This document shows, one piece after another, positions 28,907 through 42,565 of a stretch of 64,000 nt of DNA (the first letter of the stretch is position 1; each line of letters starts with the position of its first letter). The notes beneath the pieces were generated by a model. That model saw only the letters and a list, made by a program, of their open reading frames with translations, did no database searches and was not told where the DNA came from. Source of the stretch: Bradyrhizobium sp. 1(2017) (GTDB lineage: Bacteria; Pseudomonadota; Alphaproteobacteria; Rhizobiales; Xanthobacteraceae); the NCBI RefSeq assembly GCF_011602485.2, contig NZ_CP050022.2, positions 992,001-1,056,000 on the forward strand, written 5' to 3'. The translations under genes were made by a program, and so were the position numbers.

Positions 28907-29599
28907 CTACCGCGCCAACGCCCACTCACCGATGATGCGGAAGCGAGCCTTCGCGTCGTCCTGCCTGAACAGTGCGAGGCGGTCGATCGCCAGCGTGTCG
29001 ACACGAAGCGACGCAAACCGGGTCCGCAGCATCTGAAGGATGGGTCCGCGGCGCTCTGAATCCAGTCGGCCGGTGAGGGTCATGTGGAAGCGGAATTCTT
29101 CCATCACATAGGGATAGCCCCAGCGGTCGAGATGGCCGCGCTGCCGTTCGGTGAGCTTCTCGGGTCTGCGCCGTGCACGGTCTTCCGCCGTCAGTGCAGC
29201 ACGGAACGAGTCGAAATCGCGGACGCAATCGGCGGCGAGCCCCTGGAGCGCATCGACCGGCTCGGCCGGAATGACGGCGATGAAGCCGCTGATGGAATCG
29301 ACGACCGGACGGATGACCGGGATCGGTCGCGCCGTCCCGGCGAAAACCGCGCAGGCCGCCGTGAGCTCGGCTTCCGTTCTGCCGGACGCGAGCGCCATTG
29401 GCGCCTTCAGCGTGGCGTGAAAGCCGTATTTGCGGGGATCGGCGCTGATATCGCGCCAGTCCGGCGCGACTTCCAGTGCCTGGCGCGGAAACGGCAGCTC
29501 GTCGCCGCGATAGGCATCGTAGCCGAGCAACTCGGCGCCGAAGCGGGAGAGCACGCTGTCGCTGTCTGCTGCAAAATAGATCGCGTAGCGGGGAATCAT
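28907..29599 (-). CDS. DUF1045 phosphonate-operon protein, 2H phosphoesterase-like
   Basis: A 230-residue protein of the DUF1045 family found in phn operons. Two His-x-Thr motifs, H61-A-T63 in YGFHATLKAP and H172-M-T174 in FRFHMTLTGR, are the catalytic pair of 2H phosphoesterases, which open cyclic phosphates or 2-prime,5-prime linkages. It is the last gene of a leftward operon headed by a Pho box (transferase, PhnM paralogue, this protein). No phnP is present in the locus, so this protein is a candidate for hydrolysing 5-phosphoribosyl 1,2-cyclic phosphate, the product of C-P lyase, to ribose 1,5-bisphosphate for PhnN. That role is inference. Confidence 0.85.
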   Translation of the reverse strand: MIPRYAIYFAADSDSVLSRFGAELLGYDAYRGDELPFPRQALEVAPDWRDISADPRKYGFHATLKAPMALASGRTEAELTAACAVFAGTARPIPVIRPVVDSISGFIAVIPAEPVDALQGLAADCVRDFDSFRAALTAEDRARRRPEKLTERQRGHLDRWGYPYVMEEFRFHMTLTGRLDSERRGPILQMLRTRFASLRVDTLAIDRLALFRQDDAKARFRIIGEWALAR

Positions 29600-29617: not shown

Positions 29618-30811
29618 TTATGCCGCGACGACAGCCTCGCGCGGCGCTGCCGCCGCGCTGAGCAGCCGTGTCGCATCGGTGAGATGCACGAGCTTGCCGC
29701 CTGATATCACCGCGATGAGCCGCGGCCGCAGCGATACGCTGTCGTCGACCAGCAGGATGTCGGCACGGCGTCCCTCGGCGAGCACGCCGCGATCTGCGAG
29801 GCCGGTGGCACGCGCTGGACCGGCCGACACCAGGTTCCAGGCTTCCGTCAGCGGCAGCACATCGTCGGCGGCGAGGCGGAATGCGGCGAGCAGCTGTGCA
29901 GGATAGTAATAGTCCGACGCCAGCACCGAGCAGAGGCCCTTGGCGATCATGTCCGCCGCCCTGGTCCAGCCGGTGTGGCTGCCGCCGCGCACGACGTTGG
30001 GCGCGCCGTAGACGATGGCGTCGCCATGACTTGCCGCCGCGCGCGCCGTCTCCTCGTTGATCGGAAACTCCGCGATCAATGCGCCGAGCTCGCGAAACTC
30101 CTGGCGCATCGCCGGCGTCGCATCGTCGTGCGAAAGCATCCGCACCTCGGCCGTGCGCGCCGCCGCGGCCAGCCGCGACACGGAAGCGGTTACCTCGTCA
30201 GCGCGCGAGACCACGCGGTCGACCAGCCGATCGAAATCCTCGCTCGAAAGGCCGGTGCGCTCGACCATGCGGTTGCGCTTGCGGGGCTTGGCCATGTCGG
30301 CAACGGTACCGTCCATGTGGTCGTTGAAGGCGAACAGGTCGACACGGCCGTCGGAGAGCCACTGGCTGATGTCGCTCTCGGCGTCGAGATTGTAGGTCTC
30401 GTGGCGCAGGTGGAAGCGGGTGTCGGCGGCGAATTGCGGGCGCTGCCGCTCGATCGCCTCCATCAGGCCGCGCGCATTGTCGGCGCTGCGCAGGCCCGGC
30501 TCCCAAGAGCAGGTCGTGGCATGGAAGACGGTGGTGATGCCGTTGCTGATGGCCTGACGGTCACTGTCGGCGAGCGCGACGTCGATCGGAAAGTCGACGC
30601 CGGCGCGCGGCATCATTTGCCGCTCGAAGGCATCGCCATGCAGATCGACGATACCGGGCAGCACGAGCAGGTTGCGCGCATCGATCGCGAGCCGCGTGCG
30701 GCCGCGAGAGGCATCGACCTGCGCGATGTCCGTTCCGGACACGAGCAGCGAGGTTTCGACGAGCTCGGTGCCGATCAGGGTCCGGCCGCCTTCGAGGAAT
30801 ATGTCTGTCAC
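29618..30811 (-). CDS. phnM: PhnM-like amidohydrolase, second paralogue
   Basis: A 397-residue amidohydrolase-fold protein of the PhnM family (ribosyl-phosphonate triphosphate diphosphatase). The metal motif reads LHGD (H58, D60), followed by [33 protein letters not shown], the metal ligands SHDDATP and [12 protein letters not shown], and [10 protein letters not shown]. It is clearly diverged from the PhnM encoded at 40815-41972 (LHTD, SLRVWRED, IPSSLL). Its start overlaps the upstream transferase gene by four bases. It may handle a different ribosyl or nucleotide derivative than the main PhnM. Confidence 0.88.
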
Positions 30812-31508: not shown

Positions 31509-31541
31509 CTTGATGACGATGTCATGACAAGATGATGACAG
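31509..31541 (-). promoter_or_regulatory. Pho box for the leftward transferase-phnM-DUF1045 operon
   Basis: Read on the minus strand, three heptamers CTGTCAT, TTGTCAT and TCGTCAT recur at exact 11-base spacing. The PhoB-binding consensus is two CTGTCAT-type heptamers separated by four bases; the first two units here match in 13 of 14 heptamer positions. The array is upstream of the transferase gene start at 31467, so this operon should be induced by phosphate starvation. Confidence 0.85.
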
Positions 31542-31578: not shown

Positions 31579-31596
31579 GTGTCACACAAGTGTCAA
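31579..31596 (+). promoter_or_regulatory. Pho box for phnC operon
   Basis: On the plus strand GTGTCAC and GTGTCAA are separated by four bases, giving TGTCA cores 11 bases apart as in PhoB-binding sites. It ends 44 bases before the phnC start and points toward phnC. Together with the leftward array 38 bases away it makes a divergent phosphate-controlled promoter region. Confidence 0.75.
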
Positions 31597-33466: not shown

Positions 33467-33502
33467 GGAGCCGGGTCGATGGACCCGGCTCCTTCTCTTT
33501 TC
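33467..33502 (+). terminator. Intra-operon stem-loop between phnD and phnE
   Basis: GGAGCCGGGTC and GACCCGGCTCC are perfect 11-bp inverted arms around a 4-base loop, followed by the pyrimidine tract TTCTCTTTTC. This is a rho-independent terminator placed between the binding-protein gene and the first permease gene. A leaky terminator here would let most transcripts end after phnD, the usual stoichiometry of ABC importers. It could instead protect the phnD 3-prime end. Confidence 0.75.
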
Positions 33503-33523
33503 TACGGGCCAATTCCTGACAAG

Positions 33524-34408
33524 ATGACCGTCGCGGTTTCGATTCTTCCCGAGCAGCAGCTTGCCGCGCTCAACGCCGCCTATCGCCAGGCGGTCGCACG
33601 CAGGCGATGGCGCCTCCTGCTGGGAGCCGTAATCTTTGCCGCCGCGCTGGCTCTCGCCGCGGTCGGCGCCGAGGTGAACCTGCGCACGCTGTTCACCTAT
33701 TTCGGCAATTTCGTCAGCTATTTCGATCGCATCCTCACGCTCGACAGCGGCCAACGGGTCTGGACCGATGTCGGCGAATGGCTGTGGGGCTGGCGCAAAT
33801 GGCTGAAGATGCTGGGCGAGACGCTGCTGATCTCCTATGTCGGCACGCTGATCGGCGCAACCCTTGCCTTTATCCTCAACTTCTTCGCGGCCGACAACAC
33901 CTCACCCGCGCCCTGGTTGCGCTTCGTCGTGCGGCGCCTGCTCGAATTCGCCCGCACCGTTCCCGGCATCGTCTTCGCGCTGGTCTTCGTCATCGCCTTC
34001 GGGCTCGGTCCGATGGCGGGCGTGCTGGCGATCGCGATCCATTCCACCGGTGCGCTCGGCAAGCTGTTCTCGGAGATCGTCGAGAATGCCGACATGAAGC
34101 CGGTCGAGGGCATCCGCTCTACCGGCGCGAGCTGGCTATCCTGCATGCGATTCGCCGTGGTGCCGCAGGTGACCGCGGGTTATGCCAGCTACGCGCTGCT
34201 GCGCTTTGAGATCAATGTCCGGGAGGCCTCCGTGATGGGCTTCGTCGGTGCCGGCGGCATCGGCCAGGAGCTCGTCGTCGCCATCCGCAAGTTCTATTAC
34301 TCCGACGTCAGCGCGATCCTGCTCACCATCATCGTCACGGTCTTCATCATCGATATCACCACCGGCTGGCTGCGCGGCCGCCTGTTCGGCATGGAGGCGC
34401 GGACGTGA
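33524..34408 (+). CDS. phnE: Phosphonate ABC transporter permease, first PhnE
   Basis: The start at 33524 (MTVAVSILPEQQLAAL) gives 294 residues; a longer frame from 33479 would begin inside the terminator stem and is unlikely. After an N-terminal helix (about residues 25-47) it has the BPD-type permease core: LGETLLISYVGTLIGATLAFILNFFAA, RTVPGIVFALVFVIAFGLGPMAGVLAIAIHSTGALGKLFSEIVENAD and the cytoplasmic coupling EAA-like loop, then EINVREASVMGFVGAGGIGQEL, the PhnE signature. It forms a heterodimer with the next gene product. The stop overlaps the start of the second phnE by four bases. Confidence 0.95.
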   Translation: MTVAVSILPEQQLAALNAAYRQAVARRRWRLLLGAVIFAAALALAAVGAEVNLRTLFTYFGNFVSYFDRILTLDSGQRVWTDVGEWLWGWRKWLKMLGETLLISYVGTLIGATLAFILNFFAADNTSPAPWLRFVVRRLLEFARTVPGIVFALVFVIAFGLGPMAGVLAIAIHSTGALGKLFSEIVENADMKPVEGIRSTGASWLSCMRFAVVPQVTAGYASYALLRFEINVREASVMGFVGAGGIGQELVVAIRKFYYSDVSAILLTIIVTVFIIDITTGWLRGRLFGMEART

Positions 34409-35250
34409 CGCCGCAAGACGTCGACACGCGCGAGATCCGCGCGCGCTACCCCGATGTGTTCGACCGGCCGGCCTCGGCGCGGCTGGCAATGCCGGCGATG
34501 ATCGTCGCGGCGTTCGCGATCCTGATCTATGGCCTGGTCGATCTCGACTTCTCGCCGTCGCGCTTCTTCGCCGGCCTGAGCCAGCTCGGCTGGATCAGCC
34601 TGATGATGATCCCGCCCGATCCCGGCTCCTCGCTGCCGGTCTATCTGAAGGCTCTGGGCGAGACGTTGTCGATCGCGCTGCTCGGCACGACGGTGGCGGC
34701 GCTGTTTGCGCTGCCGGTCAGCTTGCTCGCCGCGCGCAACATCGTGCCGTCGAACATCCTGCGCTTCCCGGTGCGCCGGTTCCTCGATTCGATCCGCGGC
34801 GTCGATACGCTGATCTGGGCGCTGGTGTGGATCAACGTGGTCGGGCTCGGCCCCTTCGCCGGCGTGCTCGCCATCGCGGTGTCGGATTTCGGCGCCTTCG
34901 GAAAACTGTTCTCGGAGGCGATCGAGAGCGCCGACCAGAAGCAGGTCGAAGGCATCCGCGCCTCGGGCGGCAGCGCGTTGCACGAGATCCGCTTCGGCCT
35001 GTTGCCGCAGGTCCTGCCTGTCATCGCCGGCCAGGTGCTTTACTTCATCGAATCCAACACCCGCTCGGCCACCATCATCGGCATCGTCGGTGCCGGCGGC
35101 ATCGGCCTCCAGCTCGCCGAGCAGATCCGCGTGCTGGAATGGCAGAAAGTGTCGTTCCTGATCCTGATGATCCTGGTCGCGGTCGCCGCGATCGATTTCA
35201 TCTCGGGCAAGCTGCGCTTTGCCATCATTGGGCGAAGGGCTGTGGCCTAA
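34405..35250 (+). CDS. phnE: Phosphonate ABC transporter permease, second PhnE
   Basis: A 281-residue permease paralogous to the one before it, with which it is translationally coupled. Core segments are LGETLSIALLGTTVAALFALPVSLLAARNI, SIRGVDTLIWALVWINVVGLGPFAGVLAIAVSDFGAFGKLFSEAIESADQKQVEGIRASGGS (the EAA loop) and YFIESNTRSATIIGIVGAGGIGLQLAEQIR. Duplicated phnE genes are common in alphaproteobacteria and replace the PhnE homodimer of E. coli. It is the last gene of the transporter operon; a palindromic repeat follows. Confidence 0.95.
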   Translation: MTPQDVDTREIRARYPDVFDRPASARLAMPAMIVAAFAILIYGLVDLDFSPSRFFAGLSQLGWISLMMIPPDPGSSLPVYLKALGETLSIALLGTTVAALFALPVSLLAARNIVPSNILRFPVRRFLDSIRGVDTLIWALVWINVVGLGPFAGVLAIAVSDFGAFGKLFSEAIESADQKQVEGIRASGGSALHEIRFGLLPQVLPVIAGQVLYFIESNTRSATIIGIVGAGGIGLQLAEQIRVLEWQKVSFLILMILVAVAAIDFISGKLRFAIIGRRAVA

Positions 35251-35261
35251 TCACAGCTGCT

Positions 35262-35355
35262 GTAGGGTGGGCAAAGCGAAGCGTGCCCACCACGTTTGCT
35301 TAGAAGCCGGGAAGATATGGTGGGCACGGCGCAAGTGCGCCTTTGCCCACCCTAC
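35262..35355. repeat. Palindromic intergenic repeat, family B
   Basis: GTAGGGTGGGCAAAG and CTTTGCCCACCCTAC are perfect 15-bp inverted ends of a 94-base unit; inside, GCGTGCCCACCA and TGGTGGGCACGGC also pair. It lies between the convergent phnE and phnF genes and could end transcription of both. Units of this GTAGGGTGGGCAAAG type are widespread in Bradyrhizobium-like genomes. Confidence 0.8.
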
Positions 35356-40814: not shown

Positions 40815-41972
40815 ATGAACGCCAAGCCGAAAGACACTGTGATCGCCAACGCCAGGATCGTGCTGGCCGACCGGGTGATCGAGCAGGGCTGGCTCGCCCT
40901 TGCCGATGGACGCATTGCCGAGATCGGCGAGGGCCGGGCGCCCGCGGGCGCGGAGGATGCCGGCGGCGATCTGATCATGCCCGGCCTGATCGAGCTCCAC
41001 ACCGATCATCTCGAAGCGCATTACGTGCCGCGGCCGAAGGTGTTCTGGAATCCGGTGGCCGCCGTCATCTCCTATGACGGCCAGCTCGCGACCTCGGGCA
41101 TCACCACGGTGTTCGATTCGCTCCGGGTCTGGCGCGAGGACGGCGCCGAGGAAGTCGACGGCCGTTCCGGCGTGCTCGCCGCCGCGATCACGACGGCGCG
41201 CGACGCCAGCCTGCTGCGTGCCGACCACTTCCTGCATCTGCGCTGCGAGATCCCGATGCCGAGCGTGGTCGAGGAGGCCAAGGAGCTGATCGACCGCCCC
41301 GACGTCAAGCTGATGTCGCTGATGGATCACACCCCCGGCCAGCGCCAGTTCCGCGACGAGGTGAAGCTGCGCGACTATTACCGCGGCAAGGGCGGCGGCA
41401 AGACCGACGCCGAACTCGACGAGCTGTTCGCCAAGCGCTTCGAATATCAGAAACAATATGCCGCGACCAACATGCGCGAGATCGTGGCGCTGGCGCAGGC
41501 GTACAAGATCCCGCTTGCCAGCCATGACGACACCACCGAGGAGAATGTCGCGGATGCCGTGCGCGACGGCGTTGCGGTCGCGGAATTCCCCACCACGCTG
41601 GAAGCCGCGCGCGGCCTGCATCAGGCCGGCATCGACATCCTCATGGGCGCGCCCAACGTCGTGCGCGGCGGCTCGCACTCCGGCAACATCGCCGCCGTCG
41701 ATCTCGCCCGCGAAGGCCTGCTCGACATCCTGTCGTCCGACTACATCCCGTCGAGCCTGCTGATGGGGGCGCTGCAGCTGCCCGAGCATGTGCCCGCGAT
41801 CAGCCTTCCCGCCGCGATCCGCACCGTGACGAAGGCGCCTGCCGATGCGGTCGGGCTCACCGACCGCGGCGAGATCGCGATGGGCAAGCGCGCCGATCTG
41901 ATCCGCGTGCATGTCGCCGGAAGCGTTCCCGTGGTCCGCAGCGTCTGGCGGGAAGGAAGCCGCGTCGCATGA
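40815..41972 (+). CDS. phnM: Ribosyl-phosphonate triphosphate diphosphatase PhnM
   Basis: A 385-residue amidohydrolase preceded by AAGGAGGAGG. Metal-site elements are LHTDHLE (H62, D64), LRCEIP, MDHTPGQRQFRD, SHDDTTEENV and [13 protein letters not shown]. Family-specific text includes RPKVFWNPVAAVISYDGQLATSGITTVFDSLRVW and LSSDYIPSSLLMGALQLPE. PhnM removes diphosphate from the ribosyl phosphonate triphosphate before PhnJ acts. This copy is in the main catalytic operon and resembles characterised PhnM more closely than the paralogue at 29618-30811. It overlaps phnN by four bases. Confidence 0.95.
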   Translation: MNAKPKDTVIANARIVLADRVIEQGWLALADGRIAEIGEGRAPAGAEDAGGDLIMPGLIELHTDHLEAHYVPRPKVFWNPVAAVISYDGQLATSGITTVFDSLRVWREDGAEEVDGRSGVLAAAITTARDASLLRADHFLHLRCEIPMPSVVEEAKELIDRPDVKLMSLMDHTPGQRQFRDEVKLRDYYRGKGGGKTDAELDELFAKRFEYQKQYAATNMREIVALAQAYKIPLASHDDTTEENVADAVRDGVAVAEFPTTLEAARGLHQAGIDILMGAPNVVRGGSHSGNIAAVDLAREGLLDILSSDYIPSSLLMGALQLPEHVPAISLPAAIRTVTKAPADAVGLTDRGEIAMGKRADLIRVHVAGSVPVVRSVWREGSRVA

Positions 41973-42565
41973 GCGAGACTGGCGCCATCGCGCAGGAGGC
42001 GGCAGGCGGGATTGGCCCCGGGCGGCTCGTGCTCGTGGTCGGCCCCAGCGGCGCGGGCAAGGACACGCTGCTGCGACTGGCGCGGGCGGCGTGTGTCGAT
42101 GACCACAGCGTCGTCTTTCCGCGCCGTGTCGTGACGCGCGAATCCTCCGCCGACGAGGACAACATCGCGGTCACACCCGACGAATTCCGCCGCGCGCGCG
42201 ACAACGGCGATTTCGCCGTGCACTGGGATGCGCACGGACATTCCTACGCCTTGTCGACCGAGATCGACGACGATATCCGCGCCGGACGCACGGTCGTGGT
42301 CAACGTCTCGCGCACCGTGCTCGGTGCACTGCGCCAGACCTATGCCGACGTCGTGGTGGTGGCGATCACGGCGCCGCCGGATGTGCTGGCGACGCGGCTT
42401 GCGGCACGGGCGCGTCACAGTGACGGCAACATCGACGAACGCCTCGCGCGCAGCGTCGATGGCACATCGGCCGTTGCCGATGTCACCATCCTCAATGCGG
42501 GCAGCGCCGAATATCACGGCCGCCAGCTCCTGCGCGTGATCAGGAACGAAGGTTGGCAGGAATAG
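41969..42565 (+). CDS. phnN: Ribose 1,5-bisphosphate phosphokinase PhnN
   Basis: A 198-residue P-loop kinase, coupled to phnM by a four-base overlap. It has Walker A GPSGAGKDTLLRLAR (about residues 24-38), the guanylate-kinase-like RRVVTRESSADEDNIAVTPDEFRRARDNGDFAVHWDAHGHSYALSTEIDDDIRAGRTVVVNVSRTVL and a C-terminal ARHSDGNIDERLAR lid. It converts ribose 1,5-bisphosphate to PRPP, returning the ribose of the C-P lyase product to metabolism. Its substrate requires a cyclic-phosphate hydrolase (PhnP), which is not encoded in this window. Confidence 0.95.
   Translation: MSETGAIAQEAAGGIGPGRLVLVVGPSGAGKDTLLRLARAACVDDHSVVFPRRVVTRESSADEDNIAVTPDEFRRARDNGDFAVHWDAHGHSYALSTEIDDDIRAGRTVVVNVSRTVLGALRQTYADVVVVAITAPPDVLATRLAARARHSDGNIDERLARSVDGTSAVADVTILNAGSAEYHGRQLLRVIRNEGWQE

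Follow-up and report, generated by a model that had tools for sequence, protein, structure and literature searches.

A DUF1045 2H-type phosphoesterase as the probable replacement for PhnP in a Bradyrhizobium C-P lyase locus

Introduction

Carbon-phosphorus (C-P) lyase provides a route for the phosphorus of phosphonates and glyphosate and gives rise to methane in oxic water. Its action yields 5-phosphoribosyl 1,2-cyclic phosphate (PRcP), which PhnP opens to ribose 1,5-bisphosphate for use by PhnN. How is this ring opened where PhnP is missing? The question is raised by a stretch of 64,000 nucleotides from Bradyrhizobium sp. 1(2017) (contig NZ_CP050022.2, positions 992,001 to 1,056,000), hereafter the window, in which PhnG to PhnN are complete, each over its NCBIfam or Pfam cut-off, and into which none of the genome's matches to the PhnP profile TIGR03307 falls. 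Both points had been made in a first-pass annotation, which proposed that the PhnP step is done through a non-homologous fold by a DUF1045 protein (230 amino acids; 28907-29599, minus strand). That proposal is supported here: DUF1045 very probably opens PRcP in place of the non-homologous PhnP, a role drawn from its fold, the conservation of its active site, its gene neighbourhood, its one-or-other distribution with PhnP, and a metal-less PhnP homologue found beside an intact DUF1045.

The proposal itself is not new, having been published before. RcsF, a 2H protein of phn clusters without phnP, was proposed in PhnP's role (PMC3840354; this and all other papers are cited from extracts), and with a Rhodobacteraceae marine fosmid, B3_TF_MPn_2, that holds rcsF and no phnP, an E. 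coli delta-phnHIJKLMNOP strain grows on methylphosphonate (PMC3840354). A SEED survey of 54 operons counted phnP in 27 and rcsF in 16 without phnP (PMC10574752), and the rcsF reading is repeated in PMC5649143 and PMC6981132. RcsF is, we infer, DUF1045, for which the PhnP-analogue proposal has also been made under that name (PMC8235418). What is added here is a whole-genome check, a fold match to a 1'',2''-cyclic phosphodiesterase, a table of 108 genomes, a pair of Pho boxes and the metal-less PhnP.

Family, fold and proposed mechanism of DUF1045

The DUF1045 open reading frame (ORF) matches the family TIGR03223, named "putative phosphonate metabolism protein", over its full length at 296 bits against a cut-off of 249, and also matches PF06299 (206 bits, cut-off 24.3); its close homologues are Bradyrhizobium proteins, the named ones up to 96% identical. 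Two His-x-Thr motifs, H61-A-T63 and H172-M-T174, lie at the residues given in the first-pass annotation. All homologues compared, 33 diverse and 46 nearer ones, keep both histidines; 32 of the diverse set have T63 and 31 have T174, both threonines recur in all 46 nearer homologues, and R4 and R133 are invariant. An AlphaFold model (pLDDT 96) matches 2H enzymes, among them the Arabidopsis CPDase, and has LigT and Usb1 among its fold neighbours. The protein thus combines the two conserved H-x-T/S motifs of the 2H superfamily with a modelled 2H fold. At 20.5 bits it falls below the gathering cut-off of 23.3 of the LigT-like phosphoesterase family PF02834, and by its profile scores it is a superfamily relative outside that family proper. 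No match to TIGR03307 is found among its matches to E 0.001, and on this sequence comparison DUF1045 is a proposed analogue of PhnP and not a homologue.

By analogy with solved 2H enzymes, one motif histidine would activate water, the other would protonate the leaving 2-oxygen, and the two motif threonines would hold the phosphate oxygens, while the invariant R4, placed near Arg6 of LigT, would bind the 5-phosphate. DUF1045 would in this manner replace PhnP, whose metallo-beta-lactamase (MBL) fold is unrelated. The presence of DUF1045, its context, distribution, conservation and fold class are observed; the substrate, the regiochemistry, the independence of metal and these residue roles are predicted.

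The source genome lacks a recognised PhnP

The genome from which the window comes is a single contig of 7.86 Mb, and a search of all of it, which the first-pass annotation had put forward as a check, finds no PhnP over the curated cut-off: TIGR03307 gives five matches, the best of which reaches 35.7 bits (cut-off 272). One of the five is a PqqB and one an RNase Z, each over its own NCBIfam cut-off; another sits after metG and tatD and reaches 231 bits to NF038231 (cut-off 360), and the last two have no family assignment. The only two PHP-domain matches fall in ORFs of 1,193 and 1,166 amino acids, which are DnaE-sized. As judged by these profiles, the genome is without a recognised PhnP or a stand-alone PHP protein, but it does encode MBL proteins of unassigned function.

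DUF1045 and PhnP alternate across C-P lyase genomes

The distribution of PhnJ, DUF1045 and PhnP was followed in one and the same set of 398 Pseudomonadota genomes, in which 83, 71 (69 of them strong) and 19, respectively, were over cut-off. Among the 83 genomes with PhnJ, 62 carry DUF1045, 19 carry PhnP, none carries both and two carry neither; DUF1045 occurs in 62 of 83 genomes with PhnJ versus 7 of 315 without it (raw counts, uncorrected for relatedness). Further draws of 369 and 220 genomes added 25 new PhnJ genomes, of which 17 hold DUF1045 (6 of 9 and 11 of 16), six hold PhnP, none holds both over the cut-offs and two hold neither. Over all 108 PhnJ genomes the counts are 79 with DUF1045, 25 with PhnP, none with both over the cut-offs and four with neither, and in two of these four the contigs end near the position of DUF1045 in relatives. 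The mutual exclusivity that the first-pass annotation had suggested looking for is seen, with 0 of 108 genomes holding both over the cut-offs, albeit over few independent events.

The first draw gave 10 PhnJ genomes from the window's genus and 58 from its class; every one of them carries DUF1045, and in none does PhnP reach its cut-off. Since DUF1045 occurs without such a PhnP in 58 of 58 PhnJ genomes of the class, annotation that looks for PhnP only misreads such pathways as incomplete. If DUF1045 does open PRcP, the step after C-P cleavage falls, in these genomes, to a protein still filed as a domain of unknown function.

A metal-less PhnP homologue beside an intact DUF1045

A further line of evidence comes from two genomes of one genus (G476 and G594), where DUF1045 and a PhnP homologue share a single operon with the 3' order phnM-DUF1045-phnN-PhnP-like. 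The homologues (L268:8202-9005 and L269:4876-5679, both minus strand) score 143 and 119 bits against the TIGR03307 cut-off of 272 and align over nearly the full length with E. coli PhnP (3g1p, E 9e-31). Their HxHxDH metal motif is absent, E. coli LLTHYHMDH being replaced by LLPDWRPGR; LPLNHS has become LPLTGS, WLSDT has become WLPGA, and the PRNH region is missing. The histidine of LTH is retained in both and lost in P0123, a metagenomic relative likewise without HxHxDH that is known here from its protein sequence. HxHxDH itself is kept in all six further relatives inspected. The CxCxxC motif and the histidine of the following VGH or VSH, which we take to be ligands of PhnP's structural zinc, are kept in nine of nine aligned rows (six intact and three altered PhnP). 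The neighbouring DUF1045 has both motifs intact in G476 and G594 and is over its family cut-off in G476.

The PhnP-like frame is open, and its ratio of nonsynonymous to synonymous substitution (dN/dS) between G476 and G594, at 0.49, stays under 1 yet exceeds that of each of the six other genes compared (PhnN 0.44, PhnL 0.38, DUF1045 0.32, PhnK 0.22, PhnM 0.18, PhnJ 0.12), so that constraint on it looks partly relaxed. Loss of the PhnP metal motif beside an intact DUF1045 is the pattern expected if DUF1045 performs the step and PhnP catalysis is no longer selected. On balance, we consider it slightly more likely than not that in these Thioalbus-type Gammaproteobacteria DUF1045 took over the PRcP step and the ancestral PhnP persists without its catalytic dinuclear site, keeping CxCxxC...H and remaining under a degree of purifying selection through a role other than catalysis, a replacement caught midway. 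A keyword search of the literature returned no report of such a metal-less PhnP beside DUF1045. In databases the G476 protein is named "hypothetical protein [Thioalbus denitrificans]" in one and a 5-phospho-ribosyl 1,2-cyclic phosphate enzyme in another.

Gene neighbourhood in relatives

DUF1045 lies within 10 kb of phnJ in 47 of the 62 first-draw genomes carrying both. A scan of named genomes gave 80 DUF1045 loci, 32 of which show the order DUF1045-PhnM-PhnN, and the trio of hexapeptide transferase, second PhnM (PhnM2) and DUF1045 recurs in 23 of 23 loci titled Bradyrhizobium. In Paracoccus denitrificans PD1222, DUF1045 sits between phnM and phnN on plasmid 1, and no phnP is present among the 22 annotated features of that 18.7-kb stretch.

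Orphan copies of DUF1045, away from phn genes, account for six changes on the DUF1045 tree, where they are interleaved with phn-linked copies; on this tree they do not make up a single subfamily. The exception is a tight clade, L016-L019, composed of extra copies outside phn loci; in at least L017 and L019 the HxT motifs are changed (HGVLK; HMPLT or HMPVT). Near L016-L019 lies a gene that resembles, by eye, a PuuE-type polysaccharide deacetylase. Weak DUF1045-like matches were also seen in genomes without PhnJ (G210:C7:94841-95224, 37.8 bits; G288:C6:355664-355960, 30.1 bits) and possibly belong to another 2H subfamily.

Counter-evidence and alternative explanations

Several observations weigh against assigning the PhnP step to DUF1045. 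The DUF1045 or PhnP label clusters on the PhnJ tree of the 108 genomes with only two changes, so the exclusivity rests on few independent events and no p-value can be drawn from it. Two of the genomes with neither gene (G374 and G377) have real phnF-N clusters (L027, L028) nested among PhnP genomes; a third solution or a recent loss is possible, and another route to open PRcP may therefore exist. Conversely, PhnJ is missing from 7 of the 69 genomes in which DUF1045 scores strongly, which indicates that use of the protein is not confined to C-P lyase pathways, and two of the seven (L007, L013) still adjoin phnM or phnMN. In 15 of 62 genomes DUF1045 does not lie within 10 kb of phnJ, being on another contig in 13 and far apart in two; among the 13, which are draft assemblies, at least G091, G167 and G289 still adjoin other phn genes. 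At the display threshold, four of the 80 named loci (L078, L079, L082, L084) are without a further phn gene. In the source genome, three MBL proteins (L002, L003, L005) have no NCBIfam match over cut-off. A phnP is listed by name for Bradyrhizobium strain S12-14-2 (PMC10708946, in extract). The complementing fosmid holds other genes too, and its rcsF is equated with DUF1045 by inference; no enzyme assay or purified-enzyme study of DUF1045 was found in the literature searched, which left out most subscription journals.

The alternative that survives best, itself unlikely, is that a chromosomal MBL protein, for instance the PhnP relative linked to metG and tatD (G000:C1:4154004), acts in trans to open PRcP, with DUF1045 doing another job, such as opening the cyclic phosphates of sugars whose modification involves the hexapeptide transferase. 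The three unassigned MBL proteins would be candidates for such an activity, proteins with end-to-end alignments to PhnP at about 44-102 bits occur in many of the genomes that share the window's class, and C-P lyase is present without either gene in G374 and G377. However, L005, which follows metG and tatD, has only 41 bits to PhnP (cut-off 272), is nearer to NF038231 (231 bits, below 360) and reads HEHADQ where PhnP has HxHxDH, and across the 398 genomes matches to TIGR03307 are found both where PhnJ is present and where it is absent (any match in 312, over cut-off in 19, PhnJ in 83).

It is less likely still that DUF1045 opens PRcP to a different product, either ribose 2,5-bisphosphate or, with both esters cut as we presume for the PHP enzyme Elen0235/PhnPP, ribose 5-phosphate and phosphate. 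2H enzymes acting on 2',3'-cyclic phosphates do leave a 2'-phosphate, but the single 2H activity described on ribose 1'',2''-cyclic phosphate gives the 1''-phosphate (PMC5283653, in extract); PhnN, which requires ribose 1,5-bisphosphate, is encoded in the window, and the DUF1045-PhnM-PhnN order is the recurrent one noted above. The most remote reading, a phosphodiesterase for 2',3'-cyclic phosphates of RNA or nucleotides whose place in phn loci is a coincidence, would suit the fold neighbours LigT and Usb1, which act on RNA (judged by titles and an extract of PMC5283653), and the orphan copies, but not the uncorrected excess of DUF1045 in PhnJ genomes, its adjoining phnM and phnN across families, or the altered motifs of at least L017 and L019 in the clade away from phn genes.

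Organization of the locus

In the window, DUF1045 closes a trio of minus-strand genes that diverges from phnC-D-E1-E2. The trio opens with a phn-associated hexapeptide-repeat transferase (TIGR03308; 30808-31467), which overlaps by four bases with PhnM2 (NF011985, 741 bits; 29618-30811), directly upstream of DUF1045. On the plus strand follow PhnC (TIGR02315; 31613-32449), PhnD (TIGR03431; 32465-33448), PhnE1 (33479-34408) and PhnE2 (34405-35250; both TIGR01097). Downstream come the regulator PhnF on the minus strand (TIGR02325; 35376-36107) and then, on the plus strand, PhnG (TIGR03293; 36223-36690), PhnH (TIGR03292; 36656-37303), PhnI (PF05861; 37307-38410), the C-P lyase PhnJ (PF06007; 38407-39297), PhnK (TIGR02323; 39284-40081, start approximate), PhnL (TIGR02324; 40092-40802), PhnM1 (TIGR02318 / NF011983; 40815-41972) and the ribose 1,5-bisphosphokinase PhnN (TIGR02322, 228 bits; 41969-42565), the consumer of the proposed product. 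PhnC, D, E1, E2, F, G, H, K, L, M and N pass NCBIfam cut-offs, and PhnI and PhnJ pass Pfam cut-offs. One locus thus encodes two distinct PhnM proteins, of the NF011985 and NF011983 types. Between phnE2 and phnF, an inverted repeat-like stretch is seen at 35260-35355 (GTAGGGTGGGCA...TGCCCACCCTAC).

The core TGTCA-N6-TGTCA occurs twice in the 64 kb window against 0.09 expected from shuffles, and both cores lie inside the 145-bp divergent intergenic stretch, one per direction. The plus-strand core (31580-31595) faces phnC, and the minus-strand site (31524-31541), which faces the DUF1045 trio, has one mismatch to CTGTCATNNNNCTGTCAT; the consensus by which both sites are named is what we take to be that of the Pho box. 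The arrangement suggests Pho regulation of the divergent phn promoters. PhnM2, the transferase and the Pho-box pair did not figure in the first-pass annotation; a second phnM and a hexapeptide transferase were likewise remarked on in PMC3840354. In a phosphorus-stress table for Phaeobacter MED193, a DUF1045 protein (A3X3K7) is marked up alongside PhnI, J, L and M (PMC10132767, in extract).

Comparison with known systems

PhnP (TIGR03307; E. coli, PDB 3g1p) would share with DUF1045 the conversion of PRcP to ribose 1,5-bisphosphate and a place in the phn pathway, but PhnP is an MBL-type metal enzyme whereas DUF1045 is of 2H type and has no metal motif. PhnPP (Elen0235), presumably a further enzyme distinct from PhnP that works on the cyclic phosphate, has a PHP fold unlike that of DUF1045, and in the source genome PHP matches occur only in the two large ORFs described above. 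The Arabidopsis CPDase, 14% identical to DUF1045, opens ribose 1'',2''-cyclic phosphate, although its substrate carries ADP and not a 5-phosphate. E. coli LigT/ThpR, considered together with B. subtilis YjcG, is a 2H enzyme that acts on RNA or nucleotide 2',3'-cyclic phosphates; E. coli has thpR, yet its phnP strains accumulate ribose 1,2-cyclic phosphate, which gives a 31P NMR signal at 18.6 ppm (PMC3463581, in extract), so a generic 2H enzyme is insufficient. Closest of all is the RcsF/DUF1045 of published phn operons (PMC3840354, PMC10574752, PMC8235418), of which the window protein is another member under the same proposal, with no difference of kind, set in a trio with a hexapeptide transferase and a second PhnM.
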